Of a stretch of DNA of 64,000 nt, positions 29,745 through 52,471 are shown one piece after another. Made by a program: the position numbers and the translations under genes. Position 1 is the first letter of the stretch; every line of letters begins with the position of its first letter. The DNA is from Seonamhaeicola sp. S2-3 (GTDB lineage: Bacteria; Bacteroidota; Bacteroidia; Flavobacteriales; Flavobacteriaceae). Under the pieces are notes generated by a model that ran no database searches, had not been told where the DNA came from, and saw only the letters and a list, made by a program, of their open reading frames with translations. The DNA is taken from the NCBI RefSeq assembly GCF_001971785.1, contig NZ_CP019389.1, positions 1,995,001 to 2,059,000 on the forward strand, in the 5' to 3' direction.

Positions 29745-29777
29745 TTTTTTTTTTAGAATAATTAAAAATCTTTTCTA

Positions 29778-29851: not shown

Positions 29852-29876
29852 TAGTATTAATTAAACATACTATTTA

Positions 29877-31220: not shown

Positions 31221-31221
31221 A

Positions 31222-31881
31222 ATGAACAAAATAGGAGTTATATTCGATTTAGACGGTGTTATTGTAGATACCGCTAAGTACCATTATTTAGCTTGGAAAA
31301 GCGTAGCTAATAAATTAGGATTTGAATTTACAGAAGAGCACAACGAACTGCTAAAAGGTGTAAGTAGAGTGCGTTCTTTAGAAATTCTTTTAGATATAGG
31401 AGGGGTACAAATTTCCGAACAAAAAAAGCAAGAATATTTAGTTAGTAAAAACGAAGAGTATTTGGGCTTTATCACAAAAATGAAGGCCGACGAAATTCTT
31501 CCTGGAGCTTCAGAACTATTAGATGCTTTAGATGAAGCTGGAATACAATATGTGTTAGGTTCTGCAAGTAAAAATGCACCATTAATTCTTAAACAATTAG
31601 GGCTATATGATAGGTTTGCAGGTATTGTTGATGGTAACAGCGTGTCTAAAGCGAAACCAGATCCTGAAGTATTCCTAATTGGAGCCAAAAAACTAAACCT
31701 ACTACCAAAACAATGTGTTGTTTTTGAAGACGCTATTGCTGGTGTAGAAGCGGCAAATAAAGCCCATATGATTTCTGTTGGAATAGGTGATAAAAACACC
31801 CTTTGCGAAGCAGATTATAATTTCAATGACTTAACAGAAATTCCAGTGGATTTTTTTGAAAAGTTAACGACTTTAAATTGA
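31222..31881 (+). CDS. pgmB: Beta-phosphoglucomutase
   Basis: A 219-residue cytosolic HAD-superfamily enzyme that converts beta-glucose-1-phosphate to glucose-6-phosphate. The N-terminal catalytic motif VIFDLDGVIVDTAKYHYLAW contains the nucleophile Asp and the acid/base Asp; the cap domain includes KGVSRVRSLEILL; the other HAD motifs are LGSASKNAP (Ser) and KAKPDPEVFLIGAKKL with VVFEDAIAGVEAA. Length fits the family. It lies between the transporter and GH65, exactly as expected to use the phosphorylase product. Confidence 0.94.
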   Translation: MNKIGVIFDLDGVIVDTAKYHYLAWKSVANKLGFEFTEEHNELLKGVSRVRSLEILLDIGGVQISEQKKQEYLVSKNEEYLGFITKMKADEILPGASELLDALDEAGIQYVLGSASKNAPLILKQLGLYDRFAGIVDGNSVSKAKPDPEVFLIGAKKLNLLPKQCVVFEDAIAGVEAANKAHMISVGIGDKNTLCEADYNFNDLTEIPVDFFEKLTTLN

Positions 31882-31888
31882 GAAAACA

Positions 31889-34195: not shown

Positions 34196-34213
34196 TTTTA
34201 TTTTAATGAATAA

Positions 34214-36157
34214 ATGAAAACAGGTGTAAGGTTATTAGTTGTATTTTTAGTTATGCTTAGCTTTTCTTGTAATAAGAAAAAGCAAGATGTTACTAAAGAA
34301 TCTTCAACACAATCTATGGAAGAATTTAACGAAATAGAACGCATAGAACCTCTTAATTGGTGGGTAGGTTTTAAAAATAAAAACCTTCAGTTATTGGTAA
34401 AACACCCAGATATTTCTAAAGCAACGCCTAAAATAAATTACGAAGGGGTAACTATAAGTGAAGTGCATAAAGCTGATAGTCCTAACTATTTGTTTATAGA
34501 TTTAATTATTAATGAAACCGCCAAAGCCGGTAAGTTTAATATTGAATTCACATTTCAAAATGGTGATAAAAAACAGCAAACCTATGAGTTAAAACCTAGA
34601 GAGAAGGCTTCACAACATTATGTAGGTTTTAATAGCTCTGATGTTATTTATTTAATTACACCCGATCGTTTTGCAAATGGAGATTCATCAAATGATATTA
34701 ATGAAAAACTTTTAGAAAAATCTATTAATAGAGATGATGATTATGCCAGACATGGCGGAGATATTAAAGGTATTATAAACCATCTAGATTACATTCATGA
34801 TATGGGTTTTACGGCCATTTGGCCATGTCCGCTACTTACTAATGATATGCCACAAGCATCATATCATGGGTATGCAATGACTAATTTTTATGAAATAGAC
34901 CCAAGGTTTGGAACTTTAGATGAGTACTTAGAACTATCTTCTAAAATGTCTAAAAAAGGCATGAAGTTAGTCATGGATCAAGTTGCTAATCATTGTGGTT
35001 TAAACCATTGGTGGATGAAAGATTTACCATTTAAAGATTGGGTAAATCATCAGGATAATTTTGAAAAAAATAAAGATGTTTGGGATAATAAAAACATTAT
35101 AAAATCTAATCACGTAAGAACATCTAACCAAGATATTTACGCTTCAATAAAAGATAAAAAAGAAATGACCGATGGTTGGTTTGTTTCTGCAATGCCAGAT
35201 TTAAATCAACGTAATCCTTTTATGGCTAAATATATCATTCAAAATAGTATTTGGTGGATTGAAACAGCAAATTTAGGTGGTATACGTCAAGATACTTATC
35301 CGTATTCAGACAAAGATTTTATGAGTACTTGGGCGGGAGCTATTATGGATGAATATCCTAATTTTAGTATTGTAGGCGAAGAGTGGAGCTATAACCCATT
35401 GCTTATTGGCTATTGGCAAAATGGCGCAAACAATAAAGATGGGTACAACTCCAATTTAAAATCGCCTATGGATTTTGCTATGCAACGCAATATTGTTGAA
35501 GGGCTCAATGAAGAAGATACATGGGATAAAGGCTTAGTTAAAATGTATGAAGGTTTGGCAAACGATTTTCATTATGCTACACCAAAAGATATCTTGATTT
35601 TTCCTGATAATCATGATATGAGTCGCATTTTTACCCAGCTAAATGGTAATATAACTAATACCAAAATGGCACTTAGTTATATTTTAACCTTACCAAGAAT
35701 TCCGCAAATTTATTACGGAACAGAAATTTTAATGGGAGATTTTGAAAAACCAGGAGATCATGGCTTAGTAAGAAGTGATTTTCCAGGAGGATGGGAAGGC
35801 GATACTGTAAATGCTTTTACAAGAAACGGATTGACCAACGAACAAAAAGAGATGCAATCTTACGTTAAAAAATTACTCAATTATCGTAAGAACAGTAAAG
35901 CCATTCATGAAGGAAAAACAATTCATTTTGCCCCAAAAAACAAAACCTATCTGTTGTTTAGAAGTTTAGGAGATGAAGTGGTTGTGCATATAATCAATAA
36001 AAATGAAACACCAATTCAGCTTGAATTAGACCGGTTTGATGAGGTTGGTTTAAAGGGCAAAACTTTAAAAAACATTATTACTGGAGAAACTTTTGTATGG
36101 AATGATGTTCTAGAATTAAAAGAAAAAGGGAGCCTAATTTTAACTACTAAGATTTAG
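34214..36157 (+). CDS. GH13 neopullulanase/cyclomaltodextrinase-like lipoprotein (SusA-like)
   Basis: A 647-residue lipoprotein; signal with lipobox LSFSCN near residue 20. An N-terminal cyclomaltodextrinase-type beta domain (about 40-130) precedes the GH13 barrel: LVMDQVANHCG, the nucleophile in GGIRQDTYPY, the acid/base in IVGEEWSYN and the FPDNHDMSR motif, then a C-terminal beta domain. The double-domain layout resembles SusA, a periplasmic neopullulanase that cuts maltooligosaccharides. It likely faces the periplasm, anchored to a membrane. It lies in the middle of the operon, 18 bp after GH65. Confidence 0.9.
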   Translation: MKTGVRLLVVFLVMLSFSCNKKKQDVTKESSTQSMEEFNEIERIEPLNWWVGFKNKNLQLLVKHPDISKATPKINYEGVTISEVHKADSPNYLFIDLIINETAKAGKFNIEFTFQNGDKKQQTYELKPREKASQHYVGFNSSDVIYLITPDRFANGDSSNDINEKLLEKSINRDDDYARHGGDIKGIINHLDYIHDMGFTAIWPCPLLTNDMPQASYHGYAMTNFYEIDPRFGTLDEYLELSSKMSKKGMKLVMDQVANHCGLNHWWMKDLPFKDWVNHQDNFEKNKDVWDNKNIIKSNHVRTSNQDIYASIKDKKEMTDGWFVSAMPDLNQRNPFMAKYIIQNSIWWIETANLGGIRQDTYPYSDKDFMSTWAGAIMDEYPNFSIVGEEWSYNPLLIGYWQNGANNKDGYNSNLKSPMDFAMQRNIVEGLNEEDTWDKGLVKMYEGLANDFHYATPKDILIFPDNHDMSRIFTQLNGNITNTKMALSYILTLPRIPQIYYGTEILMGDFEKPGDHGLVRSDFPGGWEGDTVNAFTRNGLTNEQKEMQSYVKKLLNYRKNSKAIHEGKTIHFAPKNKTYLLFRSLGDEVVVHIINKNETPIQLELDRFDEVGLKGKTLKNIITGETFVWNDVLELKEKGSLILTTKI

Positions 36158-36161
36158 CAAG

Positions 36162-37118
36162 ATGAACCGTTTTTTTATAATAAGTTTTCTTTTGTTTTTT
36201 ATGTCTTGCAAAACAGATAAAACGTTTTCAAAGCATGTTTTTAAAATTGAAAATGCCACTTTGTCTAGTGGTTCATTATATAGAATAGATAGCATACAAT
36301 CTAAGTATATAAAACCAAGACCAGTTGATGTTTGGTTGCCAGAAAACTATTCAAAAGAAAAAAAATATGCCGTTTTATATATGCATGATGGACAGATGTT
36401 GTTTGATAGCACCACAACATGGAATAAGCAAGAATGGAAGGTAGATGAGTGGGCATCTAAACTTATGAACGATAAAATAACCAAAAACTTTATTGTAGTT
36501 GGTATTCATAATATCAAGGAGTTAAGGTGGTTTGATTTATTTCCACAAAAAGCTTTTTATAATTTAAATAAAGATACCGATGTATCCATGCTGCATGATG
36601 GTTATGAAGGATTTGATGAGTTTCTATTAAACGGCGATAATTATCTTAAATTCTTAGTAGAAGAGTTAAAACCATTCATAGATTCAACATACTCCGTTTA
36701 CACTAATAGAGAAAATACATTTGTAGCGGGTTCCAGTATGGGTGGTTTAATGAGTATGTATGCTATTTGCGAATATCCTAATATTTTTTCTGGGGCCGCT
36801 TGTCTTTCAACGCATTGGGAAGGAGCCGCTCCAATAGAAAATAATCCGTTGCCAGAAGCTGTTTTTAAATACATGGAAGCTAATTTACCATCGGCAGAAA
36901 ACCATAAACTTTATTTTGATTATGGCACAGAAACATTAGATGCACATTACCCTAAGCACGCGCCTAAAGTAAATGAAATATTAGCATCTAAGGGGTATGA
37001 TAAAACAAACTCAAAGAATTTAATGTTTGAAGGAGCAAACCATTCAGAAAATGCATGGAATCAGCGTTTGTATATTCCGTTAACATTTTTATTAGGTAAT
37101 ACAAATGAACAAATTTAG
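36162..37118 (+). CDS. Lipoprotein esterase of the alpha/beta-hydrolase (esterase D-like) family
   Basis: A 318-residue lipoprotein (lipobox FFMSC near residue 16). The fold is an alpha/beta hydrolase of the putative esterase (EstD/Fes-like) type: KKYAVLYMHDGQMLFD, WKVDEWASKLM, the nucleophile elbow AGSSMGGLMSMY (GxSxGG) and a C-terminal catalytic His in FEGANHSENAW. It lies 4 bp after the GH13 gene and overlaps the GH31 gene by 14 nt (37105-37118), so it is translationally coupled to starch enzymes. The substrate is unknown; acyl or acetyl groups on glucans are an inference only. Confidence 0.82.
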   Translation: MNRFFIISFLLFFMSCKTDKTFSKHVFKIENATLSSGSLYRIDSIQSKYIKPRPVDVWLPENYSKEKKYAVLYMHDGQMLFDSTTTWNKQEWKVDEWASKLMNDKITKNFIVVGIHNIKELRWFDLFPQKAFYNLNKDTDVSMLHDGYEGFDEFLLNGDNYLKFLVEELKPFIDSTYSVYTNRENTFVAGSSMGGLMSMYAICEYPNIFSGAACLSTHWEGAAPIENNPLPEAVFKYMEANLPSAENHKLYFDYGTETLDAHYPKHAPKVNEILASKGYDKTNSKNLMFEGANHSENAWNQRLYIPLTFLLGNTNEQI

Positions 37119-39507
37119 TACAGTTTTTTTATTCGTTTTTATCGGTTTATTTGCATTCGGGCAAAATAAGAACAGAACGTTTTTTGATGTAAATTATACC
37201 GAAGGAGATTTTCTAACAATAAAGGTAAACGACGGTTTATATAAAATTCGATTTTATACAAAAGATATTGTTGAGACCACATTTATACCAAAAGGAGAGC
37301 AGTTTGATGATGTCTCACATGCCGTTATATTGCACCCCAAAAAAGTAGATGTGGTTTATAGTTATAGCCCTAAAAACAACAACGTTTTTTTCAAAGCAAA
37401 AGAAGGTATTACTGTAAAAATTCAAAAGCATCCTTTTCAAATTTCATATGTATATAAAGACAAGCCTATTATTTCAGAAAAAGCAGGTTATGTTAAAAAT
37501 GATAGTTTAGAAACCATTCAATTTAACCTTTCTAAAGATGAAGTATTGTACGGTGGGGGTGCCCGTGCTTTAGGAATGAACAGAAGAGGGAACAGGTTGC
37601 AACTTTATAATAGAGCGCATTATGGTTATGAAACCAGAAGTGAATTAATGAATTACACCATGCCCATTGTATTATCATCTAATCAGTATTTGATTCATTT
37701 TGATAATGCACCAATTGGTTTTTTAGATTTAGATAGTAAAGGCGATAATACACTTGCTTACGAAACTGTTTCTGGCAGAAAAACCTATCAGGTTATTGTA
37801 GGCAAAAATTGGTATGATTTATTAGATAATTATACCAATTTAACAGGAAAACAACCTATGCTGCCACGTTGGGCTTTAGGGAATTTTTCTAGTAGATTTG
37901 GGTATCATTCAGAAGCAGAAACCGAAGCTACTATTGCTAAATTTAAAAAAGAAAAAATTCCGGTTGATGCGGTTATATTAGATTTATATTGGTTTGGAAA
38001 AGAGGTTATGGGCACAATGGGAAATTTAGAGTTTGATAAAGATTCTTTCCCAAACCCCAAGCAAATGATTAAAAACCTAAGAGATAATAATGTTGAAACT
38101 ATTTTAATTACAGAGCCCTTTATTTTAACTACATCAAAAAAATGGGATGAAGCCGTTAAAGAGGATATTTTGGCTAAAGATTCCGTAGGAAATCCATTTA
38201 CCTACAATTTCTTTTTTGGCAATACGGGACTCATAGATATTTATAATCCAAAAGGAAAAAAATGGTTTAAAAATATATATAAAGATCTATTAAAAATGGG
38301 TGTTACTGGTTTTTGGGGTGATTTAGGAGAACCAGAAGTACACCCAAAAGAACTAATACACGCCACTGGAACAGCCAATGAGCTACATAATATTTATGGC
38401 CATAATTGGGCAGAATTAGTTTATGAGGCTTCAAAAGAGTTTAATCCAGATAAAAGACCATTTATATTAATGCGTGCTGGCTATTCTGGTTCACAACGTT
38501 TTGGTATGGTTCCTTGGTCTGGAGATGTAAATAGAACTTGGGGCGGTTTACAAAGTCAACCCGAAATAGCATTGCAAATGGGCATGCAAGGGTTGGCATA
38601 CATGCATTCAGATTTAGGTGGGTTTGCCGGCGCCAATTTAGATGATGAACTTTACGTGCGTTGGTTGCAATATGGTGTTTTTCAACCAATATACAGACCT
38701 CATGCACAGGAAGAGGTCCCTAGCGAACCCGTTTTTAGAAGTGGGAAAGCTAAGGTTTTGGCCAAAAAGGCTATAGAATTGCGTTATAAGTTATTGCCGT
38801 ATAATTATAATTTGGTCTATGAAAATAACCAGTTTGGTAAACCGTTAATGAGACCTTTATTTTTTGAAGAGCCTAATACCCCTTCGCTTTATGGTTATTC
38901 AAAAACCTATTTGTGGGGCCATGATATTTTGGTGTCTCCAGTGTTAGAACAAGGCAAAACAGAACAGGAAATGTACTTTCCTAAAAACGCCATTTGGTTC
39001 GATTTTTATTCAGATGAAAAAGTAAAAGGCGGACAAACAAAAACAGTTTTACTTGAAGAAAATAATATTCCCACTTTTATTAGGGCCGGAGCATTTATTC
39101 CTATGGCAAAACCAATGCAGTCTACCAAAGCGTACAATGCTAATCATTTAGATGTACATTATTATTTTGACGAATCTGTAAAGGAAAATAAAGCTGAATT
39201 TTATAATGATGATGGGGCGTTAGCCAATGCTTCAGAAACAAATAATTATGAAATTTTAGAGTATAAAGCAACATTTGATAAAAACCGTTTGAAAATTGAA
39301 TTTGAAGCCGAAGTAGGAGTTAATTACAATTCACAGACCAAATATTTTAACCTTATAGTTCATAACATACAAAAACAGCCAAAACGTATTAATGTAGGTG
39401 GTAAAAAAGTAAACGTTGAATGGGATGGTAAATTAAAATCATTAACTGTACCAGTGGTTTGGCAAGCTTCAAAAGGTAAAAAAATACTAATAAAATTTAA
39501 AAAATAA
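37105..39507 (+). CDS. GH31 alpha-glucosidase, secreted/periplasmic
   Basis: An 800-residue alpha-glucosidase with signal peptide MNKFSTVFLFVFIGLFAFGQ. An N-terminal beta-sandwich (about 20-240) precedes the barrel. GH31 hallmarks: LDLYWFG, the nucleophile in GFWGDLGEPEV, and the acid/base Asp in VPWSGDVNRTWGG, followed by YMHSDLGGFAG. It releases glucose from the non-reducing ends of maltooligosaccharides. No lipobox, so it is predicted soluble in the periplasm or exported. It takes the place that GH97 SusB has in Bacteroides. The start overlaps the esterase gene. Confidence 0.92.
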   Translation: MNKFSTVFLFVFIGLFAFGQNKNRTFFDVNYTEGDFLTIKVNDGLYKIRFYTKDIVETTFIPKGEQFDDVSHAVILHPKKVDVVYSYSPKNNNVFFKAKEGITVKIQKHPFQISYVYKDKPIISEKAGYVKNDSLETIQFNLSKDEVLYGGGARALGMNRRGNRLQLYNRAHYGYETRSELMNYTMPIVLSSNQYLIHFDNAPIGFLDLDSKGDNTLAYETVSGRKTYQVIVGKNWYDLLDNYTNLTGKQPMLPRWALGNFSSRFGYHSEAETEATIAKFKKEKIPVDAVILDLYWFGKEVMGTMGNLEFDKDSFPNPKQMIKNLRDNNVETILITEPFILTTSKKWDEAVKEDILAKDSVGNPFTYNFFFGNTGLIDIYNPKGKKWFKNIYKDLLKMGVTGFWGDLGEPEVHPKELIHATGTANELHNIYGHNWAELVYEASKEFNPDKRPFILMRAGYSGSQRFGMVPWSGDVNRTWGGLQSQPEIALQMGMQGLAYMHSDLGGFAGANLDDELYVRWLQYGVFQPIYRPHAQEEVPSEPVFRSGKAKVLAKKAIELRYKLLPYNYNLVYENNQFGKPLMRPLFFEEPNTPSLYGYSKTYLWGHDILVSPVLEQGKTEQEMYFPKNAIWFDFYSDEKVKGGQTKTVLLEENNIPTFIRAGAFIPMAKPMQSTKAYNANHLDVHYYFDESVKENKAEFYNDDGALANASETNNYEILEYKATFDKNRLKIEFEAEVGVNYNSQTKYFNLIVHNIQKQPKRINVGGKKVNVEWDGKLKSLTVPVVWQASKGKKILIKFKK

Positions 39508-39511
39508 TAAA

Positions 39512-41383
39512 ATGAATAAAACCATTGCTTTAGCTTCCATGATAGTGCTTACGGTAATATTGGGGTGTAAAAAAGTACAAGAAACAGAGGTGGTAGCAAG
39601 AACGTCTTTAAAGAAAAAGCAAGTTATTTATCAAGTTTTCACACGTCTTTTTGGAAACACTAATTCAACCAATAAACCCTGGGGAACTATTGAAGAAAAT
39701 GGCGTTGGAAAATTTAACGACTTTACAGATAAAGCTTTAAAAGAAATTAAAGATTTAGGAGTTACGCATATTTGGTACACTGGGGTACCGCATCATGATG
39801 TTATTACAGATTATACGGAGTTTGGTATTTCAATGGATGATCCCGATGTGGTAAAAGGGCGTGCCGGATCACCTTATGCGGTTAAAGATTATTACAATGT
39901 AAACCCAGATTTAGCTGTAGATGTTAATAATCGGTTAGGCGAGTTTAAAGCGCTCATAGAGCGTTCTCACAAAGCAGGGTTAAAAGTTGTTATCGATATA
40001 GTTCCCAACCATGTAGCTAGAAATTATGAAGGTTTAACCAACCCTGAAGGCGTGGTAGATTTTGGCGCTAATGATGATAAATCGGTTACATATAATGTAA
40101 ACAATAACTTTTATTACAACCCAGATGAGTCATTTAAAGTGCCCGTTTGGGAAAATAATTATTCTCCTTTAGGAGATGAAAAACATCCTTTAGAAGATGG
40201 TGAATTTGATGAAAATCCAGCAAAATGGACAGGTAATGGGTCTAGATTATCTCAACCTAAAATGAATGATTGGTACGAAACCGTAAAAATAAACTATGGT
40301 ATTGCACCAGATGGAACTAAAGATTTTGATGAACTTCCAGAAGGTTTTGAAAACAAAGATTACAAAGCGCATTTACAGTTTTGGAAAGATAAAAAAATTC
40401 CAGACTCATGGAAAAAGTTTAAGGATATTGCTCTGTACTGGTTAGATATGGGGGTAGATGGTTTTAGGTTCGATATGGCCGAAATGGTACCGGTTGAGTT
40501 TTGGAGTTACATGAATTCTAATATTAAAAACAAAAATCCCGAGGCTTTTTTACTGGCAGAAGTTTACAATCCAAGCTTATACAGAGATTATATTAAAAAA
40601 GGAAAAATGGATTATTTATATGATAAAGTTCAGTTGTATGATACTCTTAAGCACGTAATGCAAGGACACGGAAAAACAGATAATATTCCACCTATTCAAG
40701 AGGATTTAAAAGACATAGAACACCATATGCTCCATTTTTTAGAAAACCACGACGAGCAACGTATTGCCAGTCCAGAGTTTGCAGGAAATGCAAAAAAAGG
40801 AAAACCTGCTATGGTAGTTTCTGCAACTATTAGCACCTCTCCAACCATGATTTATTTTGGGCAAGAATTGGGTGAACCCGGAGCAGAAGACGCTGGTTTT
40901 GGGAAACCATCAAGAACATCAATTTTTGATTATATAGGGGTGCCAACACTACAACGCTGGGTAAATAATAAACAGTTTGATGGCGGACAATCTACTGCCG
41001 AAGAAAAAGAATTAAGAGACTTCTATAAACGTTTGCTAAATTTTACAATTAATAGTACAGCTTTAGCCGGTAATTATCAAGATATTCATTTGTATAACAG
41101 AAAACATACCAATAATTATTCAGATAGAGTATTGTCTTTTGTAAGATGGAGTATTGAAGAAAAACTAATCGTTATATCTAATTTTGACGATTCTAATTCT
41201 TATGAATTTAACTTAGAAATCCCACAAGAGTTAATCAATACCTTAAGTTTAAAAGATGGTGTTTATACTGTTAAAGATGAGTTATATGGAAAGTATAAGT
41301 CAAGTTTGAACATTAAAAATTCCACAGGAACTATAAATATTAAAATTAACCCGTTAGAATCGTTTATTCTTAAAATTTATTAA
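39512..41383 (+). CDS. GH13 alpha-amylase-family lipoprotein
   Basis: A 623-residue lipoprotein (lipobox VILGC near residue 19). GH13 barrel motifs: LKVVIDIVPNHVARNYEG, the nucleophile in DGFRFDMAEMV, the acid/base in FLLAEVYNPS and FLENHDEQRI. An additional loop of about 100 residues after the first motif (TYNVNNNFYYNPDESFKVP...) is rich in Asn and acidic residues. It acts on maltooligosaccharides or starch at a membrane face, likely periplasmic. Exact specificity is unknown. It lies 4 bp after the GH31 gene and 1 bp before the next GH13 gene. Confidence 0.9.
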   Translation: MNKTIALASMIVLTVILGCKKVQETEVVARTSLKKKQVIYQVFTRLFGNTNSTNKPWGTIEENGVGKFNDFTDKALKEIKDLGVTHIWYTGVPHHDVITDYTEFGISMDDPDVVKGRAGSPYAVKDYYNVNPDLAVDVNNRLGEFKALIERSHKAGLKVVIDIVPNHVARNYEGLTNPEGVVDFGANDDKSVTYNVNNNFYYNPDESFKVPVWENNYSPLGDEKHPLEDGEFDENPAKWTGNGSRLSQPKMNDWYETVKINYGIAPDGTKDFDELPEGFENKDYKAHLQFWKDKKIPDSWKKFKDIALYWLDMGVDGFRFDMAEMVPVEFWSYMNSNIKNKNPEAFLLAEVYNPSLYRDYIKKGKMDYLYDKVQLYDTLKHVMQGHGKTDNIPPIQEDLKDIEHHMLHFLENHDEQRIASPEFAGNAKKGKPAMVVSATISTSPTMIYFGQELGEPGAEDAGFGKPSRTSIFDYIGVPTLQRWVNNKQFDGGQSTAEEKELRDFYKRLLNFTINSTALAGNYQDIHLYNRKHTNNYSDRVLSFVRWSIEEKLIVISNFDDSNSYEFNLEIPQELINTLSLKDGVYTVKDELYGKYKSSLNIKNSTGTINIKINPLESFILKIY

Positions 41384-41384
41384 A

Positions 41385-43040
41385 ATGAAAAAAAGCATAA
41401 TTCTGGCGTTAATTTATATTCCTTTAGTTTCATTTGTTCTATTCATTAATTGTAAGGATAACGAAAACAAGAAAGAAAAAACACCTTTTGTTTGGGAAGG
41501 TGCCAATATCTATTTTTTACTAGTAGATAGATTTAACAATGCAGATTTTGCTAACGACGTTAATTTTAATAGAAACAAAGAAACAGCAGTATTAAGAGGT
41601 TTTAAAGGGGGCGATTTAAAAGGGATAACCCAAAAAATAAACGAAGGTTACTTTACCGATTTGGGGGTCAATGCCATTTGGATGACTCCTATTGTCGAGC
41701 AAATTCACGGAAGTACCGATGAAGGTACGGGGCTTACATACGGGTATCATGGGTATTGGACAAAAGATTGGACGGCCATAGATCCCAATTTTGGAACGAA
41801 AGACGATTTGCACGAGTTGGTAGAGGCGGCTCATAAAAAAGGCATTAGGGTTTTATTGGATGCCGTAATTAACCACACGGGGCCGGTAACAGCAAAAGAT
41901 CCTGCTTGGCCACAGGATTGGGTAAGAACAGAACCCAAATGTGAGTACACTAATTATGAGTCTACTGTAAGCTGCACCCTGGTTGAGAATTTACCGGATA
42001 TAAGAACAGAAAGTAATGAAGATGTTGATTTGCCACAACAGTTGGTTGAAAAATGGAAAAAAGAAGGCAGGTACCAGCAAGAAATGGCAGAGTTAGAGGC
42101 TTTTTTTAAAAGAACAGGCTATCCCAGGGCACCGCGTTTCTACATTATTAAATGGCTAACGGATTATATTACAGAGTTCGGAATAGATGGCTATAGGTGC
42201 GACACCGTAAAACATACCGAAGCCTATGTTTGGGAAGAATTTAAAACCCAATGCGATGATGCGTTTAATAAATTTAAAGAAGACAACCCAGACAAGGTAT
42301 TGGATAATAACGATTTTTATCTAGTGGGAGAGGTGTACAATTACGGAATAAGCTCTGGAAAGTATTTTGATTACGGTGATAAAAAACAAAACTATTTTGA
42401 TAATAAATTTAACAGCCAAATAAACTTTGAATTTAAGTGGAACGCCAAACAAATGCCTATTCAAGAAATGTTTGCCAAATATGACAGTATTCTTCATTCA
42501 AATTTAAAAGGATTTGGTGTTTTAAACTATTTAAGTTCACATGATGATCACAATCCGTTTGATGCCAAACGCGGAAAACCTTTTGAAACAGCCAATAAGT
42601 TATTGTTAGCCCCAGGAACTTCTCAAATTTATTACGGCGATGAATTAGCGCGTATATTATTGGTTGATGGGGCTAGTGGCGATGCCAACTTAAGATCTTT
42701 TATGAATTGGGAAGCGCAAGAAAGTAACAGTGAAATTTTAAACCATTGGCAAAAATTAGGGCAATTTAGAAATAACCATCCAGCAGTTGGAGCGGGCAAA
42801 CATCAAATGATAAGTTCTAACCCATTTGTGTTTTCAAGAAGTTTTTCAATAAAAGACTATCATGATAAAGTAGTTGTTGGTTTAAATCTTTCAAAAGGAG
42901 AGAAACTAATAGATGTTTCTTCTGTATTTAATAATGGTGAAAAACTGCATGAGGCATATTCAAATCAAAATTTAAAAGTTAAAAACGGAAAAGTTAGTGT
43001 TAATTCAGAATTTAGTATTGTTCTTCTAGAAACTAAATAG
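41385..43040 (+). CDS. GH13 alpha-amylase-family lipoprotein
   Basis: A 551-residue lipoprotein; signal followed by the lipobox LFINC near residue 23. GH13 motifs: VLLDAVINHTGPV, the nucleophile in DGYRCDTVKHTE, the acid/base in LVGEVYNYG and LSSHDDHNPF. A Cys pair (CEYTNYESTVSC) lies in the barrel and may form a disulfide. It is the last gene of the rightward maltose operon, 1 bp after the preceding GH13 gene. The three GH13 lipoproteins here differ in domain make-up, suggesting distinct cleavage roles rather than duplication. Confidence 0.9.
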   Translation: MKKSIILALIYIPLVSFVLFINCKDNENKKEKTPFVWEGANIYFLLVDRFNNADFANDVNFNRNKETAVLRGFKGGDLKGITQKINEGYFTDLGVNAIWMTPIVEQIHGSTDEGTGLTYGYHGYWTKDWTAIDPNFGTKDDLHELVEAAHKKGIRVLLDAVINHTGPVTAKDPAWPQDWVRTEPKCEYTNYESTVSCTLVENLPDIRTESNEDVDLPQQLVEKWKKEGRYQQEMAELEAFFKRTGYPRAPRFYIIKWLTDYITEFGIDGYRCDTVKHTEAYVWEEFKTQCDDAFNKFKEDNPDKVLDNNDFYLVGEVYNYGISSGKYFDYGDKKQNYFDNKFNSQINFEFKWNAKQMPIQEMFAKYDSILHSNLKGFGVLNYLSSHDDHNPFDAKRGKPFETANKLLLAPGTSQIYYGDELARILLVDGASGDANLRSFMNWEAQESNSEILNHWQKLGQFRNNHPAVGAGKHQMISSNPFVFSRSFSIKDYHDKVVVGLNLSKGEKLIDVSSVFNNGEKLHEAYSNQNLKVKNGKVSVNSEFSIVLLETK

Positions 43041-43116: not shown

Positions 43117-43124
43117 TAAATTTG
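43117..43124 (+). promoter_or_regulatory. Promoter -7 element of the GAF-domain gene
   Basis: TAAATTTG fits TAnnTTTG and overlaps a possible TTG start at 43122, which supports the ATG at 43143 as the real start with a very short leader. No good -33 element was found. Confidence 0.45.
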
Positions 43125-43142
43125 TCACGCAATACTATTTCT

Positions 43143-45518
43143 ATGACCAACATTAACGATAATATTGAATCGCCATTAATTCTAAAAGTAAGTTTTAGTA
43201 ACCTTTTAGATTATTATGAAGATTTAGCTACAAATCAAGACCCATTTGTTGCAGCTAGAGCTAAACACGTCTTGAAAATAGCTGAAGATTATCCAGAGTT
43301 GCGTGATGGGTTTACAAATACTGAGGTATTAGAACAAAGAAAAGAAGAAATTAAAATAATACTTCAAGACTCTTTTAGTCCAGTACTAACCAAAAACGAA
43401 ATAAAAACAGCCTCAATTCCTTTTCATGATATTATTTTTAATGAATCAGAACGTTTTAAAAATATCATAGAAACAGCAGGAGAAGATTTTCAACTTCACA
43501 TAAAAAATATGCCAGAAGATTATAGGTATATTGTTGCTTGTACGGTTATTTTAAATTTTTGCTATGGTTATGATTTAAATTTTAAGCGTCCGTTTTATTA
43601 TGAAATACCAGATGCCAATGGTATTATGAGATATTACAAAATAATGTATAATGCAGATTTTTGTAAAATAAAACCAACGCCTAATGCTCCTAAAATTACT
43701 CAAGAAGATTATGAAGAATTATTAGATAATTTTGAGAATTTAGATTTGTGGAAAGAAAAGTTTCCGCCCAATAGCTATGTTTTTGAAGGCTTTGTTATTT
43801 CAAATATTTTTGATGTTACAGATGATCAATCTATTTCTAATATAAAATCATCACTTATTTCAGATGAAAGTCATAAAGATGCCTCTTTCATAGAAAGATT
43901 TTATGAAATATTCAGGTCTTTACTTGGTCTTAAAGATATAAAGGTAGGATTTTCTATGTATAATGCAGAAGACAATACATTTGAAAGTCTTTATGGTGTT
44001 AGTGCTAGTAGCTTTTTATTAAGTGATTTAGAAAAAGAAGATTGTAAAAAAGCATTATGTGTATGGTCTTATAACAGGTTAATTAATGAGCATAAAAACC
44101 TATCTATTTCAGATGTAGATAAGGCATACAGTAAATCAAAAGGAAAAGTACCTCAAATAAAAGCTTTACATGAACAAGGTATAAAAAGCGCTATTTTTCT
44201 TCCTATTGCCAATGATTATGGATTAATGGGAGTAGTTGAAATTATTTCCTATAAACCAAAAGCTTTAAATAGCATTAATGCTAATAAATTGGTTGATGTT
44301 ATGCCTTATATTATTTCGGCTATTGAACGCTCTAAAGCCGAAGAAGAAAACCTTATTGAGGCTATAATTCAAAAGGAATGTACATCAATACACCCAAGTG
44401 TACACTGGAGGTTTGTAAAAGAGGCTAAAAAATTCATAAAAGATGAGGTATTAGGAAAAGAAGCCCGTTTTAGAAAAATTGTTTTTGAAGGGGTTTATCC
44501 GCTCTATGGTCAAATTGATATCAAAGGATCTTCAGAAGCTAGAAATAATGCAACCAAAGAAGATTTAAAACTACAGCTAAATGCTGTAAAAAGTATATTG
44601 AATAAGGCTGCAAAAATAGAACCACTTCCTATTTACGAGCAATATATCTATCAGGTAGAAAAATATTTAGAAGAATTAGAAAATCACTTTCAAGTAGATA
44701 GTGAGCAACAAATCTCAGAGTTTTTTAAACAAGATGTAGAACCTACTTTTAAGCACTTAAGTAAGATTGATGAATTGTCAGAACTCATAGAAGGCTATCA
44801 TAATAATATTGATGATAAAGTAGAAATGCTTTATAAGCACAGAAAAGATTATGATGATACTATTGCAACTATTAACCAAGAAATGGCTTCTTTATTAGAT
44901 AGTAAGCAAAAAGAAGCTCAAGCAATGTATCCTCACTACTTTGAGCGTTTTAAAACAGATGGTGTAGAGCATAATATGTACATAGGAGAATCTATTACTA
45001 AAGAAGATAGTTTTAATCCATTATACTTATATAATTTACGCTTGTGGCAGTTGCAAGTAATGTGTGAAATGGAAAATATGTATTATCAAATGCGGTCAGA
45101 CCTTCCTGTTTCATTAGATGTGGCTTCCATGATATTAGTATTCAATCAACCATTGTCTATTAGTTTTAGAATGGATGAAAAGCAGTTTGATGTTGATGGT
45201 ACTTATAATGCCCGATATGAAATTGTGAAAAAACGAGTTGATAAAGCTTATATAAAAGGAACAAACGAGCGCATTACTCAAAAAGGGAAAATAAGTATAG
45301 TCTATTCTCAAAAACAAGACGAGATAGAGTACATGCATTATATTAAGTTTTTACAAGATAAAAACTATTTAGATACAGATGTTGAAATAGTAGAACTTCA
45401 AGATTTACAAGCGGTTACAGGACTTAAAGCTATACGTGTAAGTGTGCTTTATCATAAAAATGAAAATGATAAATCATTCTATACTTATGATGATTTAATG
45501 AAAGAAATTAAAGCTTAA
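43143..45518 (+). CDS. GAF-domain protein of unknown function
   Basis: About 791 residues from the ATG at 43143 (MTNINDNIESPL); an earlier TTG at 43122 overlaps the promoter. A GAF-like module is recognisable at about 240-410 (SAIFLPIANDYGLMGVVEIISYKP). The flanking N- and C-terminal parts are helical, with charged coiled-coil-like stretches (ELIEGYHNNIDDKVEMLYKH and around). No kinase, cyclase or output domain was recognised, no signal peptide, no membrane helix. It looks cytosolic and sensory. It converges with the HD/Pycsar-effector-like gene, 18 bp away. Function unknown. Confidence 0.8.
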   Translation: MTNINDNIESPLILKVSFSNLLDYYEDLATNQDPFVAARAKHVLKIAEDYPELRDGFTNTEVLEQRKEEIKIILQDSFSPVLTKNEIKTASIPFHDIIFNESERFKNIIETAGEDFQLHIKNMPEDYRYIVACTVILNFCYGYDLNFKRPFYYEIPDANGIMRYYKIMYNADFCKIKPTPNAPKITQEDYEELLDNFENLDLWKEKFPPNSYVFEGFVISNIFDVTDDQSISNIKSSLISDESHKDASFIERFYEIFRSLLGLKDIKVGFSMYNAEDNTFESLYGVSASSFLLSDLEKEDCKKALCVWSYNRLINEHKNLSISDVDKAYSKSKGKVPQIKALHEQGIKSAIFLPIANDYGLMGVVEIISYKPKALNSINANKLVDVMPYIISAIERSKAEEENLIEAIIQKECTSIHPSVHWRFVKEAKKFIKDEVLGKEARFRKIVFEGVYPLYGQIDIKGSSEARNNATKEDLKLQLNAVKSILNKAAKIEPLPIYEQYIYQVEKYLEELENHFQVDSEQQISEFFKQDVEPTFKHLSKIDELSELIEGYHNNIDDKVEMLYKHRKDYDDTIATINQEMASLLDSKQKEAQAMYPHYFERFKTDGVEHNMYIGESITKEDSFNPLYLYNLRLWQLQVMCEMENMYYQMRSDLPVSLDVASMILVFNQPLSISFRMDEKQFDVDGTYNARYEIVKKRVDKAYIKGTNERITQKGKISIVYSQKQDEIEYMHYIKFLQDKNYLDTDVEIVELQDLQAVTGLKAIRVSVLYHKNENDKSFYTYDDLMKEIKA

Positions 45519-45536: not shown

Positions 45537-46739
45537 TTAAGATCCTGCCCCAGAAAATTGAAAAGCAATAGCAAATGCAATAACACTTACAATTATTCCA
45601 ACCATAAAAACACTGTAGGTAAGTCTAAGAATTTTGTATTTTTTATCAAGAACCAAACCTAAAAAATAAAGGTCTTTTTTCATTGAAGAATACAAATAAT
45701 CACGGTCTTGCATCATTTCGCCCATAGCCCACTCAAAATCATTAAGCTTCATTTTATGAAAGTTGCCAAAAAATAAAAGGTTAACTTTTTTATTAGCTAC
45801 ATCTTCTTTTGTGAATTTACCTCTAGTAACATTGGGTCTTGTTGCTAGAACGGACAATACAATAGAAGCCACTGTTACAACCACAAAAATAACTGTTGGT
45901 GTAATTAAATAATAATTTGACGGATTGTCTAGTTTAGGAATAAGATTTGCTAAAACCATAGACACAATAATAGCGTTTACAGAAAGTAAAATATTAGCTT
46001 TAGTATCAGCAATATTACTTAGTTGCATATGGTTTTTTAGAGTAACTCTAAACATAGTTTCTATACCGCGTTCTGGTAATGCAACCTTGTTTTTTTTAAA
46101 TTTTAATTCTTCTTTTTTTTGCTTTAACTTCTTTTCGTTTTCAACTATCTTGTTTTTTCTTTTAAGTAATTCAGAAAGGTTTTTGCTTTTTCTTTTACCC
46201 CATAATAAAGCAGCTTCTGGTGTATGAAAGTGATGTTTTTTAGTTAAAAAGTGAATATTGTTGTCTAACCATTCTTTTTCACTTAATATTTTGTTATCTA
46301 ATAATTCCCATTCCTTTCTTAAAAGTTCAGATGATTCTAAATAATTCTTGCTTCCAACATGAGAGCAATCAGCATCTCTAATTATTTTTTCTAGTAGAGT
46401 TTTAGGCTCATAATCTATCTCAGTTGCCATAATAAGTTGGCAAACAGCTTCAATTTTATCGGCTGGATATTTTTTAGATTCTAGAAATTCTCGTGCAATT
46501 TTGGCACTGTTTTTTTCATGGTTTTTACAACCCTTAATAAAACCTGTGTCATGTAACCAGCTACTTAGAGCAAGCAGTTCTTTATCTGCATCTGTTACGT
46601 TACAAAGCTCTGCAAGTTCTAGAGATTTTTCTGCAACGCGCTGTGTATGTGTTAAATTATGATAAACAAAAGATTTGTCTAACGCTTCATTTAAAAGATT
46701 TGTAGCAAATTTTTCGGTTTCTAGTAAAAGGTTACTCAT
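45537..46739 (-). CDS. HD-domain phosphohydrolase fused to Pycsar-effector-like (PycTM) membrane domain
   Basis: A 400-residue protein. The N-terminal HD domain (about 20-180) keeps the metal-binding residues: HNLTHTQRV, SSWLHDTGF, and IIRDADCSH. A charged linker (about 185-225, Lys/Glu-rich) leads to a C-terminal domain with three predicted helices: ADTKANILLSVNAIIVSMVLA (about 240-262), a second at about 276-300 and a last at about 375-397. The ADTKANILL start is the hallmark of Pycsar effector membrane domains (DUF5706), which depolarise or disrupt the membrane when cyclic nucleotides accumulate. No cyclase gene is near, so it may be a stand-alone form. Role unproven. Confidence 0.82.
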   Translation of the reverse strand: MSNLLLETEKFATNLLNEALDKSFVYHNLTHTQRVAEKSLELAELCNVTDADKELLALSSWLHDTGFIKGCKNHEKNSAKIAREFLESKKYPADKIEAVCQLIMATEIDYEPKTLLEKIIRDADCSHVGSKNYLESSELLRKEWELLDNKILSEKEWLDNNIHFLTKKHHFHTPEAALLWGKRKSKNLSELLKRKNKIVENEKKLKQKKEELKFKKNKVALPERGIETMFRVTLKNHMQLSNIADTKANILLSVNAIIVSMVLANLIPKLDNPSNYYLITPTVIFVVVTVASIVLSVLATRPNVTRGKFTKEDVANKKVNLLFFGNFHKMKLNDFEWAMGEMMQDRDYLYSSMKKDLYFLGLVLDKKYKILRLTYSVFMVGIIVSVIAFAIAFQFSGAGS

Positions 46740-47939: not shown

Positions 47940-50900
47940 ATGACGCATCATTTAAGGTTATTTTTAATTTTCATTTCACTTATATTATTAAATAATTGTG
48001 CTACCTATAAAGCTCAATATAAAGGCGTTGTGGTTACAGGCAATTTTCAAGAAGAAGATATTATACATTCTTTTTACTTAATTGGAGATGCTGGTAATTC
48101 GCCAATAGGAAGTAAGTCGCCCACAGTTGAAGTTTTAGGTGAAGAACTAAAAAAGGCATCAAAACATAGTACAGTATTGTTTTTAGGTGATAATATTTAC
48201 CCAAAAGGAATGCCTGCTAAAAAATCAAAAAACAGAGCATTTGCAGAACATCAGTTAAATGTTCAAACAGATATTGTTAAAGATTTTAAAGGCGATGCTA
48301 TTTTTATTCCGGGTAATCATGATTGGTATAATAATGGTTTAAAAGGACTCAAACGTCAAGAAAAATATATAGAAGAAAGGTTAGGGAAAAACACCTTTTT
48401 ACCAGAAGATGGATGCCCAATAGAAAAAGTTGATATATCAGATGATATTGTTTTAATAATAATAGATTCAGAATGGTATATAACAAATTGGGATAAACAC
48501 CCAACCATGAACGATGATTGCGAAATTAAAACCAGAGCTAAATTTTTTGAAGAACTAGAGGGTTTAATAAAAAAAGCCCGAGGAAAGACTACGGTTTTAG
48601 CCATACATCACCCTATGTTTACTAATGGGCCTCATGGGGGGCAATATTCTTTTAAATCTCATTTAACACCTTTGCCAATTTTAGGAACATTAAAAAATAT
48701 ACTCAGAAAAACCAGTGGCGTTTCTCCGGCAGATATTCAAAATAAAAAATATAACACGCTTAAAAAACGTATAGTTACTTTAGCTCAAGAAAATGATAAA
48801 GTTATTTTTGTGTCTGGGCATGAACACGGTTTACAATATTTGGTAAAAGATAATTTACCACAAATAATTAGTGGTGCAGGCTCTAAATCAACTGCTACCA
48901 GAAATGTATCTGGTGAATTTTCATCAAGTGCATTAGGGTATGCAAGATTAGATGTTTTAAAAGATGGATCATCTTATGTTAGGTTTTATTCTGCTAAAAA
49001 CAATGAGCTTATATACCAAAATCAAGTTTATTCAGAAGATGAAAAAGAACATACAGCTAAATACAATGCCTCTTTTCCTAAAGAAGTAAAAGCATCTGTT
49101 TATACCAAAGAAGAAGTACATAAAAGCAAGTTTTATAAAACCGTTTGGGGAGATCGTTACAGAGAATATTACGGTGTTAAAGTTAATGCACCAACGGTAA
49201 ATTTAGATACACTATTTGGAGGTTTAAAACCATTTAGAAAAGGAGGCGGACATCAATCAAAATCATTACACTTAAAAGATAAAGCGGGTAAACGCTATGT
49301 TATGCGGGCTATAAGAAAAAGTGCGGTTGTGTACCTGCAAGCTATGGCTTTTAAAGATCAATATATTGAAGGGCAGTTCGATAATACTTTAACAGAACGG
49401 TTATTGCAAGATTTCTATACAGGCTCTCATCCTTATGCGCCATTTGTAACTGGAGAACTGTCAGATGCTGTAGGTTTATACCACACCAATCCTGTGTTGT
49501 ATTACGTGCCTAAACAAGATGCTTTAGGACAATTTAATACTAATTTTGGGGATGAATTGTATATGATAGAAGAGCATGTTTCTGATGGTCATGGAAATCT
49601 TAAAAGTTTTGGATATTCTAACAAAATAGAAAGTACTGATGATTTAATTAAAAAACTGCGTAAGGACGAAAAATATGAGGTAGATGATATCATGTTTTTA
49701 AGAGCACGTTTATTTGATATGGCTATTGGAGATTGGGATAGACATATAGACCAGTGGCGATGGGCCGAGTTTAAAGATAAAGCTTCTGGAAAAATAATTT
49801 ACAAACCCATTCCAAGAGATAGAGATCAAGCTTTTTCAATAATGGGAGATGGTGCCTTAATGAATTTTGCAACTAGGGTGATTCCGCCTTTAAAATTAAT
49901 GGAAGGTTTTAATGAAGATATTAGAAATGTAAAAGGTTTTAATTATAGCCCGTTTTCATTAGATATGATGCTGCTTAACAAAACAACTTTAAAACAGTGG
50001 CAAGAACAAGCCTTATACATTCAAGAGCATATTACAGATGATGTTATAGATAAGGCTTTTAAAGAATTTCCTAAAGAAGTACAAACCCAAACAATTTTAA
50101 AAATCAAACAAATTTTAAAACAAAGACTTAAAAACCTACCCCAAATAGCAAATCGTTATTACCATGCTTTAAATAAATATGTGCTTGTAACGGGTACCGA
50201 TAAGGATGATTTTTTTGAAATTGAAAGAATGCCTAACGGAAATACTAAAGTTACTGGGTATAGAATTAAAAAAGGCAAAAAGGCAGATGTGTTTTATGAG
50301 AAACTATTCAATGCTAATGAAACCAAAGAAGTTTGGGTCTATGGAATAGATGATGAAGATGTATTTAAAGTTTTTGGCGAAGGTGATAATTTAATTAAAA
50401 TGCGTTTAGTGGGTGGGCAAAATAACGATGTTTATACCATAGAAAACGGTAAAAAAATAAAAATTTACGATTATAAAACTAAGAAAAACACCTTCGCTAC
50501 AAATAAAGGAATTAAAAAGCTAACAGATAATTATGAAACCAATATTTATGATTATACCAAGCCTAAAAGTAATACCAATCAATTTATTCCAACAATAGGG
50601 GCTAATCCTGATGATGGATTAAAAATAGGCTTTATAAATACTTATACACATTACGGTTTTGCTAGAAATCCATTTACATCACAACATACTGTTTCTGGCG
50701 CATACTATTTTGCAACAAACGGCTATGATGTTGCGTACAATGCAGAATTTGCTAATGTAGTTGGTAATATGAACCTTCAATTAAATGTAAGATTTACAAG
50801 TCCTAATTATGCCATTAACTTTTTTGGTTTTGGTAATGAAACAAACAACCCAGAGGCTGATGAAAATGATGGTTTAGATGTAGGTTTAAACTATAACAGA

Positions 50901-51629
50901 GTAAAATTGCAAACCTTAAAATTTTCACCAGCATTGATATGGAAAGGTGAGTTAGGAGCTAGCTTTAAAATAGGACTTAACTATGAATCTATTGAAGTAG
51001 AAGAAACCGAAGGTCGATTTATAAATGAATTTATAGGCGATAATATTGAAACTAATAATACGTTTTTAGGTGCTAAAATGGAATATAGTTATCATAATAA
51101 AGATAACGAAGCCTTTCCTACTTTAGGTATGGAATCTAATTTTCAATTAGGTTACACAACAAACATAGATAATTCAAAGAGTTTTGGGTATTTTATCCCT
51201 TCGTTGGGTATTGATTATAAGGTAATACCAAGTGGGCAATTAGTTTTGGCTTCTAAAGTAAAAGCGCATATAAATATTGGTGATGAAGATGATATAGAAT
51301 TTTACCAAGGCGCTAACATTGGTGCAAATAGCGGATTACGAGGTTACAGAAATGAACGTTTTACAGGGATGTCTTCCTTTGTGCAAAGTACAGACTTGCG
51401 CTTAAACCTTAGAAAAATTAAAACGGGGTTGTTGCCATTAAATTTTGGCGTTTACGGTGGTTTTGATTATGGTCGTGTTTGGTACAAAGAAAATCATTCT
51501 AATGTTTTGAATACCTCTATAGGCGGTGGCGTTTTTGCAAATGCAGCAGATGTGATAACTTTAAATTTATCGGCTTTTAATAGTGATGACGGTGTGCTTT
51601 TAGCTTTCAAACTAGGTTTTGGGTTTTAA
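47940..51629 (+). CDS. Metallophosphoesterase / kinase-like / beta-barrel fusion protein
   Basis: A 1229-residue exported lipoprotein-like protein (signal, lipobox ILLNNC near residue 20). Domain order: calcineurin-like phosphoesterase (about 35-360) with all metal motifs (LIGDAGN, LGDNIYPKG, PGNHDWYNNG, HHPMF, SGHEHG); a middle region (about 450-770) with kinase-like elements, including RYVMRAIRK, GDWDRHIDQW (D598, D600, H602) and PRDRDQAF (D627, D629); and a C-terminal outer-membrane barrel (about 870-1229, Omp85/surface-antigen-like) ending in Phe. The order of a phosphatase, a kinase-like domain and a barrel is striking. The kinase assignment is inference. Convergent with the next gene, 4-nt overlap. 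Confidence 0.8.
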   Translation: MTHHLRLFLIFISLILLNNCATYKAQYKGVVVTGNFQEEDIIHSFYLIGDAGNSPIGSKSPTVEVLGEELKKASKHSTVLFLGDNIYPKGMPAKKSKNRAFAEHQLNVQTDIVKDFKGDAIFIPGNHDWYNNGLKGLKRQEKYIEERLGKNTFLPEDGCPIEKVDISDDIVLIIIDSEWYITNWDKHPTMNDDCEIKTRAKFFEELEGLIKKARGKTTVLAIHHPMFTNGPHGGQYSFKSHLTPLPILGTLKNILRKTSGVSPADIQNKKYNTLKKRIVTLAQENDKVIFVSGHEHGLQYLVKDNLPQIISGAGSKSTATRNVSGEFSSSALGYARLDVLKDGSSYVRFYSAKNNELIYQNQVYSEDEKEHTAKYNASFPKEVKASVYTKEEVHKSKFYKTVWGDRYREYYGVKVNAPTVNLDTLFGGLKPFRKGGGHQSKSLHLKDKAGKRYVMRAIRKSAVVYLQAMAFKDQYIEGQFDNTLTERLLQDFYTGSHPYAPFVTGELSDAVGLYHTNPVLYYVPKQDALGQFNTNFGDELYMIEEHVSDGHGNLKSFGYSNKIESTDDLIKKLRKDEKYEVDDIMFLRARLFDMAIGDWDRHIDQWRWAEFKDKASGKIIYKPIPRDRDQAFSIMGDGALMNFATRVIPPLKLMEGFNEDIRNVKGFNYSPFSLDMMLLNKTTLKQWQEQALYIQEHITDDVIDKAFKEFPKEVQTQTILKIKQILKQRLKNLPQIANRYYHALNKYVLVTGTDKDDFFEIERMPNGNTKVTGYRIKKGKKADVFYEKLFNANETKEVWVYGIDDEDVFKVFGEGDNLIKMRLVGGQNNDVYTIENGKKIKIYDYKTKKNTFATNKGIKKLTDNYETNIYDYTKPKSNTNQFIPTIGANPDDGLKIGFINTYTHYGFARNPFTSQHTVSGAYYFATNGYDVAYNAEFANVVGNMNLQLNVRFTSPNYAINFFGFGNETNNPEADENDGLDVGLNYNRVKLQTLKFSPALIWKGELGASFKIGLNYESIEVEETEGRFINEFIGDNIETNNTFLGAKMEYSYHNKDNEAFPTLGMESNFQLGYTTNIDNSKSFGYFIPSLGIDYKVIPSGQLVLASKVKAHINIGDEDDIEFYQGANIGANSGLRGYRNERFTGMSSFVQSTDLRLNLRKIKTGLLPLNFGVYGGFDYGRVWYKENHSNVLNTSIGGGVFANAADVITLNLSAFNSDDGVLLAFKLGFGF

Positions 51630-52471
51630 TTAAGGCTTAATTTGTATAAATTACCTCCTTCGCCATGGGCTTTTTCATCTGTAATTAATAAAGTGTTGTT
51701 ATCTTTAAAGCAAATGCCTTCTTTTTGTGAGATGTAATCAAAAGGTATTTCGGTTACATCGCCATTAAAAAAGTCGTCACCTTTAAAGTTAGAGAATACC
51801 CAAACAGATTTAGGTGTTAATAACACCATCTGTTTACCATCATTACTTATGTCTGCAGAGGTAATCCAGCAATCAGATTCATTACAAGTGTTAAAAGACC
51901 CTACTAATTCTGCAACATGATTGCCTTTTGTTGCAGGCAGCTTGTAAAGATTGGTTTTTCCAAAGTTATTTTTTACACGACTTTTTGTAAATAAATACAA
52001 GCTATCATTGTAATGAAAAAAGGCTTCGCAGTCAAAAAACATTTTTTTCTTTTTAGGCGGGAATTTTGTTTGATTTTTAAACTTAAAGCTAATACGTTCA
52101 ACATCCACTTTTTTACCTTCTTTTAAAGCAGTTTTGTTAACCTTTAAAATGGCTAAGTTATCTCTTTTGTTGTTGTTATTACCAAAGTCGCCTATATAAA
52201 GATTTCCTTGAGAGTCTGATGTTAAATCTTCCCAATCATGGTTTTTAGCATTAATTTTCAACTCGCTAATAATTTCTCCTTTGGTATTTAAACTATATAA
52301 TAACGGTTTGTTTCCGCTATCATTTAGCATCCAAATTACATTGGAGTTTTCAATAATTTCAGTACCAGAAACTTCCTTTAAATCATTAGGCAAATCATTT
52401 ATAAATTTTAATTTCCCTGTATTACAGGATGTTGATAAGGCTAAAAGAAATAAGAACGATTGTTTAAGCAT
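51626..52471 (-). CDS. Lipoprotein of beta-propeller type, function unknown
   Basis: A 281-residue lipoprotein (lipobox LALSTSC near residue 16). Repeating SDSQGNLYIGDFG / SADISNDGKQMVLLTP / ISQKEGICFKDNNTLLITDEKAHGEGGNLYKLSLN segments suggest a small beta-propeller, similar to proteins annotated SdiA-regulated or PQQ/NHL-like. No enzymatic motif was recognised. It ends 4 nt inside the tail of the 1229-residue protein (opposite strand) and lies divergent from the flavoprotein gene. A surface or periplasmic location is predicted. Confidence 0.65.
   Translation of the reverse strand: MLKQSFLFLLALSTSCNTGKLKFINDLPNDLKEVSGTEIIENSNVIWMLNDSGNKPLLYSLNTKGEIISELKINAKNHDWEDLTSDSQGNLYIGDFGNNNNKRDNLAILKVNKTALKEGKKVDVERISFKFKNQTKFPPKKKKMFFDCEAFFHYNDSLYLFTKSRVKNNFGKTNLYKLPATKGNHVAELVGSFNTCNESDCWITSADISNDGKQMVLLTPKSVWVFSNFKGDDFFNGDVTEIPFDYISQKEGICFKDNNTLLITDEKAHGEGGNLYKLSLN

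Follow-up and report, generated by a model that had tools for sequence, protein, structure and literature searches.

The window analysed here is a 64,000-nucleotide stretch of Seonamhaeicola sp. S2-3 (Flavobacteriaceae; contig NZ_CP019389.1, positions 1,995,001 to 2,059,000 of the forward strand), and the gene under study encodes a single chain of 1229 residues in which a signal peptide with a lipobox is followed by a metallophosphoesterase, a middle domain, a beta-rich linker and a 16-strand Omp85 barrel (Table 1). Position and translation bear out the original prediction that phosphoesterase, middle region and barrel lie on one chain, and the motifs GDWDRHIDQW (residues 597-606) and PRDRDQAF (625-632) that it singled out are found in the translation as stated. 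Matches to the gene occur in 27 of the 39 genomes searched, the window's own included, and the long copies are open frames of about 1200-1260 residues with no internal stops; because long uninterrupted homologues recur across genomes, the reading frame is neither a product of chance nor broken. Relatives of the middle domain are encoded in at least 584 of the 595 pattern-matched stretches from genome contigs, the best 80 of which make up our set of nearest loci. Cys20, at the end of the signal peptide, is kept in at least 90% of 21 aligned full-length copies, the window gene among them, and a simple rule recognises a lipobox-like Cys in 147 of 157 phosphatase-bearing rows.

Table 1. Features of the gene and its two conserved neighbours, in window positions
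Feature	Residues	Position	Strand	Basis
Whole gene	1229 aa	47940..51629	+	open reading frame list and translation
Signal peptide ending in lipobox-like LNNC	Cys20	47940..47999	+	alignment and simple lipobox rule
Purple-acid-phosphatase-like metallophosphoesterase (predicted)	42-365	48063..49034	+	PF00149, fold match, metal-site motifs
Protein-kinase-like domain (predicted)	380-745	49077..50174	+	AlphaFold model, Foldseek, profile comparison
P-loop-like GGGHQ, between two N-lobe strands	435-439	49242..49256	+	model strands 430-434 and 440-446
Catalytic-loop-like DWDRHIDQW	598-606	49731..49757	+	between helix 583-596 and strand 606-613 in model
PRDRD, DFG-Asp-like metal site	625-629	49812..49826	+	right after strand 618-625 in model
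Beta-rich linker	750-868	50187..50543	+	regularly spaced short strands in both models
16-strand Omp85-type barrel	877-1227	50568..51620	+	secondary structure of full model, TamA match, NCBIfam
GLRGYRNERFTG, Omp85 loop-6-like RG(Y/F) motif	1132-1143	51333..51368	+	long loop between strands 11 and 12
HD + PycTM protein, conserved neighbour		45537..46739	-	family matches, neighbour tblastn
Convergent gene, weak SdiA-regulated/NHL similarity, propeller-like, conserved neighbour		51626..52471	-	family matches, neighbour tblastn

The middle domain most plausibly adopts a protein-kinase-like fold, as supported by a remote structural match. An AlphaFold model covering residues 375-865, computed from the window gene's sequence and those of 73 relatives (74 sequences), reached a pLDDT of 91.7 and a pTM of 0.91, and its Foldseek comparison with the PDB gave 13 matches at E<=0.001, every one a kinase-fold chain; two of these are Rv3197, which we take to have a kinase fold. 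CtkA leads the list (E 2.3e-5), which also includes PI4KII-alpha, RIO2, ADCK3/COQ8A and an mTOR complex chain, with FAM20C chains following at about E 3e-3. The unrelated fold that had been named beforehand as speaking against a kinase did not appear. CtkA was also first when a profile of 86 diverse members was compared with PDB sequences (E 0.054, aligned at the catalytic loop), and a profile of 22 members matched it at E 0.5. Profile matches to HDAC6 were rejected, as they rest on a short DWDxH stretch. The middle domain has no family match in Pfam or NCBIfam. No Fam20C Pfam match was present among the 17 families returned for 22 members or among the 25 of 50 families listed for 86 members, while HipA_C (2 of 86 members, best E 0.2) and CotH (1 of 86, E 0.064) fall short of family membership. 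The suggestion of an atypical kinase like FAM20C, CotH or HipA therefore stands as regards the predicted fold and falls as regards membership of those families, CtkA being the closest match by fold and by profile.

Within the model, GGGHQ lies between strands, DWDRHIDQW after a long helix, and D627 after the second strand that follows it. Kinases present their elements in the order P-loop, catalytic loop, DFG Asp, and judged by this order the predicted domain places a catalytic-loop Asp and a metal Asp at kinase positions. Conservation was counted over 201 distinct kinase-like domains, the window gene being counted once, after the removal of two members, namely a gene truncated at a locus end and a divergent, partially matching copy (L156). 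D593, D598 and D627 are invariant (201/201), and D600 (196), R601 (200), H602 (196), Q605 (199) and D629 (199) nearly so; candidates for the beta-3 Lys are Arg456, in mid-strand (200/201), and Lys460, at the strand end (199/201), and Q439 of the P-loop-like segment is kept in 198 of 202 rows. All 155 distinct phosphatase-bearing fused copies retain D598, D600, R601, H602, Q605, D627 and D629.

The N-terminal domain is predicted to be a phosphatase of the purple-acid type. PF00149 matches residues 45-296 (E 2.2e-8, over the Pfam cut-off), and the chain carries GDAG (49-52), GDNIY (83-87), GNHD (125-128), HHP (223-225) and GHEH (293-296), a motif set that we take to be that of the purple acid phosphatases. 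This match and the full set of active-site motifs confirm the earlier claim of a complete phosphoesterase. Foldseek with the full model matched GAP50 (3tgh; E 2.1e-10, TMt 0.61). A plain sequence search of the PDB gave two purple acid phosphatase matches at E 0.8 and 0.87 and was set aside. The window protein has all nine metal-site positions, the Tyr of GDNxY included, and these are standard in 144 of the 155 fused copies; the other 11 consist of one with H224N, two that are gapped (one by a deletion, one by a contig end) and eight that are decayed. Constraint on the kinase-like site is thus no weaker than that on the phosphatase site (155/155 against 144/155). The eight copies with a decayed phosphatase and an intact kinase-like site are at loci L023, L028, L029, L030, L106, L173, L178 and L187.

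The linker is present in 195 of the 203 members described below, and the C-terminal outer-membrane barrel, as originally proposed, is upheld by a full model (residues 31-1229; pLDDT 84.0, pTM 0.80) with 16 long barrel strands. For this model Foldseek places a BamA chain at the top, followed by the GAP50 phosphatase-fold chain and then by TamA chains (TamA barrel 4n74, TMt 0.77). NCBIfam Omp85_fam matches best over residues 1049-1199 (E 3.1e-12, 46.7 bits against a cut-off of 200), the barrel region gives only a sub-threshold ShlB match in Pfam (E 0.005), and neither database matches a POTRA domain in the window protein. The segment GLRGYRNERFTG is presumably the Omp85 loop-6 motif.

The kinase-like domain was found in 142 of 395 sampled Bacteroidota genomes. 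We counted 203 members, the window gene once, among which 155 have phosphatase, kinase-like domain, linker and barrel, 31 lack the phosphatase, nine have kinase-like domain and linker, seven have the kinase-like domain alone and one is a cut segment; 80 of the loci are nearest relatives, so these proportions are not natural frequencies. Across a tree of 86 kinase-like domains the phosphatase-fused state changes six times, with good branch support for at least four of the changes; stand-alone copies form a single clade (100/100). The seven stand-alone proteins have, judged by eye, an N-terminal membrane segment. All seven (L031, L032, L149, L150, L151, L196, L197) have CF(E/D)C just before their last residue. 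Two loci of one genus, L148 (3838-7793) and L163 (4872-8840), encode consecutively a kinase-plus-linker lipoprotein, a PF00149 lipoprotein and a PF01103 barrel, the lipoprotein signals being judged by eye. As the parts are fused in one lineage and adjacent genes in another, they probably work together. This three-gene set adjoins genes that resemble, by eye, an ABC exporter and an MgtE-type transporter. Barrel-less kinase-plus-linker lipoproteins also occur in divergent or tandem clusters (L147, L191, L192), three of the nine kinase-plus-linker copies have Ser for D600 together with Arg for H602, and one genome (G018) holds three tandem copies of the fused gene. Five plasmid records carry copies, from Hymenobacter (3), Persicobacter and Parabacteroides, four annotated 'hypothetical protein' and one without an annotated feature; 11 pattern matches on viral contigs included no relative.

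Inside the window, the HD-PycTM and propeller genes lie on either side of the gene, with two methionine sulfoxide reductase genes between. Neighbours were counted by targeted tblastn within flanks of about 5-7 kb, some shortened by contig ends, around the 80 nearest loci and around 58 others. The latter were selected before their neighbours were identified, in most cases so as to cover diverse members, from some 150 matches listed and two earlier ones. Among the 80 nearest loci 61 have HD-PycTM in their flanks, as have all 18 of the more distant fused loci (from 14 families) and 13 of the 28 barrel loci that lack the phosphatase; for the SdiA-regulated/phytase-like propeller the same three sets give 62, 14 and 14. 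Polyphosphate kinase PPK1 adjoins none of the nearest loci, three of the more distant fused and 10 of the phosphatase-less barrel loci, in six families. Unsupervised clustering agrees in kind, with somewhat lower counts (HD-PycTM 17/18 and 11/28, propeller 10/18 and 13/28). PPK1 presence as such was rejected as evidence, since 357 of the 395 genomes have it. Two or more PPK1 copies are commoner in genomes with the kinase-like domain across 15 families (z 3.8, or 5.6 without family f32), a comparison restricted to families holding genomes both with and without the domain and in which genomes lacking PPK1 are partly listed; f32 runs the opposite way, with at least two copies in 10 of 16 genomes with the domain against 47 of 65 without. 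In the window's family two PPK1 genes are present in four of five genomes with a stand-alone copy against one of 36 others sampled; the same number is found in four more relatives that carry several kinase-like copies. We treat this association as a lead only, because the genomes concerned may be one clade.

Some loci (L143, L164, L177, L186 and others) share a recurrent cluster of HD-PycTM, a SixA-like histidine phosphatase, PPK1, the kinase-fold Omp85 gene and the propeller, and the HD-PycTM/PPK1/kinase-fold Omp85 cluster sometimes adds CotH and PAP2 genes. PycTM is the membrane part of a Pycsar effector type known from anti-phage effectors; with HD-PycTM recurring beside kinase-fold Omp85 genes in 14 families (also L165, L164), a housekeeping or phosphate role seems possible. 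A 798-residue protein (window 43122-45518, +) is a neighbour in 51 of the 80 nearest loci, its relative at L157 having a weak GAF match. Elsewhere, window 28602-43040 is a starch/maltose utilisation locus, with a LacI regulator and a series of genes for GH65, GH31 and alpha-amylase, and two tandem pairs of open reading frames of identical lengths (311 and 128 residues) at 5900-8713 (-) are perhaps a duplicated insertion element.

In the model that we propose, the protein works within phosphate/polyphosphate metabolism as a phosphate-transfer module that is anchored in the outer membrane and faces the periplasm; we judge the chances of this reading to be about evenly balanced. The N-terminal lipid and the C-terminal Omp85 barrel would keep both enzyme domains close against the outer membrane's inner leaflet. 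There the kinase-like domain would transfer phosphate (or nucleotide) to a substrate in the periplasm or the inner leaflet, and the purple-acid-phosphatase-like domain would strip phosphate from the same or a related substrate; polyphosphate as the donor is a guess suggested by the neighbours. The domain order, the three predicted folds, the conserved active sites, the repeated fusion and splitting and the conserved neighbours were computed; we infer the lipid anchor and the orientation, catalysis by the kinase-like domain, a substrate common to both domains and the link to polyphosphate.

Several observations weigh against this reading. The kinase-fold match is remote, because the TM-scores are low (for CtkA, TMq 0.31, TMt 0.47 and a root-mean-square deviation of 8.6 over 364 columns), and the sequence-profile searches of the PDB with 22 and 86 members gave no significant kinase match. 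The beta-3 Lys is either Arg456 or shifted to Lys460, and the usual catalytic-loop Asn (D-x4-N) is Gln605 in 199 of 201 domains and Asn in two; nucleotide binding may therefore be altered or lacking. D600 is lost in five of 201 domains, all in phosphatase-less classes, with the further divergent L156 copy outside the count, and pairing with the phosphatase is non-obligatory, since the phosphatase site is decayed in eight fused copies. As to the neighbours, the seven stand-alone loci lack HD-PycTM and the propeller in their flanks and show PPK1 once, at a locus edge, and five kinase-plus-linker loci lack all three in theirs. PPK1 lies 1.18 Mb from the window gene and beside none of its nearest relatives; the phosphate/polyphosphate link, which appears clear for part of the distant members, would therefore be indirect for the window gene. 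Moreover the periplasm is without ATP according to PMC11116518, which puts the phosphate donor in question. A pseudokinase, in which the middle domain binds a ligand and regulates the phosphatase or the barrel without catalysis, would fit the replacement of the usual Lys and Asn by Arg456 and Gln605, the want of ATP and the loss of D600, and is compatible with the other readings; the retention of seven key residues in all 155 phosphatase-bearing copies, those with a decayed phosphatase included, tells against it, and we hold it to be unlikely while giving it serious weight.

Two further explanations turn on the barrel. The protein could be an Omp85 assembly or translocation factor whose barrel inserts or moves proteins and whose kinase-fold and phosphatase domains act as POTRA-like binding platforms, which suits the barrel with its loop-6 motif and the view that a protein-assembly role is the most conservative hypothesis for unknown Omp85 subfamilies (PMC4104836). 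However, conservation is among the highest at the active sites of the two enzyme domains, the kinase-like domain is barrel-less in 16 of the 203 members, and the Omp85 barrel of PlpD serves an enzyme domain (PMC11116518), so that we find such a role rather unlikely. The original prediction instead placed the enzymes at the surface, and a type Vd-like barrel could export both domains to extracellular substrates; a PlpD-like Bacteroides fragilis protein, BF9343_2862, is protease sensitive in intact cells (PMC4319957), which favours this and counts against the periplasmic model. Bacteroidota surface lipoproteins are described as having acidic export signals after the Cys (PMC5080379), but here Cys20 is followed by ATYKA, with no acidic residue, and two adjacent acidic residues at +2 to +6 occur in only one of the 147 rows with a recognised Cys (157 rows tested). 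The enzyme domain of PlpD, once thought to be secreted, stays in the periplasm (PMC11116518), and the passage of two large folded domains through a narrow barrel would be demanded. A surface location is thus not borne out and seems quite improbable; given the missing export signal and the PlpD precedent, the enzyme domains probably face the periplasm, with a presumed lipid anchor at Cys20.

If the proposed phosphate-transfer module is right, a gene labelled 'hypothetical protein / metallophosphoesterase' becomes a testable enzyme candidate in more than a third of the Bacteroidota genomes sampled, and phosphorylation in their envelope, together with its phosphate donor, becomes directly testable by point mutants. 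The protein may point to phosphate transfer where ATP is not expected. A bolder version, which we regard as improbable, is a new periplasmic kinase family carried by an Omp85 barrel. Such kinases would draw on polyphosphate or some other donor than ATP, and the phosphatase on the same chain would reverse their action, making up a self-contained envelope phosphorylation cycle widespread in Bacteroidota.

Each part has known counterparts. The Helicobacter pylori kinase CtkA (PDB 3akj/3akk), which is kin to HipA, comes nearest in both fold and profile, with an alignment at the catalytic loop, but is a 325-residue chain with neither barrel nor phosphatase and has Asn where the kinase-like domain has Gln. 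FAM20C, matched at the fold level as above, and CotH are kinase folds outside the cytosol. Likeness to purple acid phosphatases and GAP50 lies in the motif set GDxG, GDNxY, GNHD, HHP and GHxH and the fold match, whereas the phosphatase of the window protein, of predicted activity, is fused to a kinase-like domain and a barrel. A Riemerella virulence metallophosphoesterase was set aside as a studied relative owing to its description, in a review, as an effector of the type IX secretion system (PMC10202324). Among whole proteins, the Omp85 'Metallo' subfamily of Heinz and Lithgow (2014; PMC4104836) is by description similar, in that a PF00149 domain precedes an Omp85 barrel without POTRA. The authors call PF00149 a metalloprotease, give genus level as the limit of the group's conservation and report a 'noNterm' group in which a similar barrel stands alone; in the part of the paper drawn on, no kinase-fold domain is mentioned for 'Metallo', in contrast to the window protein. 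The phosphatase-Omp85 architecture was thus known before, and searches of open-licence papers found no description of a kinase-fold Omp85 protein. PlpD of Pseudomonas aeruginosa, a patatin-Omp85 protein proposed to act on outer-membrane lipids, likewise bears an enzyme domain N-terminal to its barrel (PMC11116518), but combines one lipase domain with POTRA, whereas the window protein has two phosphate-related domains, a lipobox and no POTRA match. After PlpD, the window protein may be another Omp85 barrel that carries enzymes.

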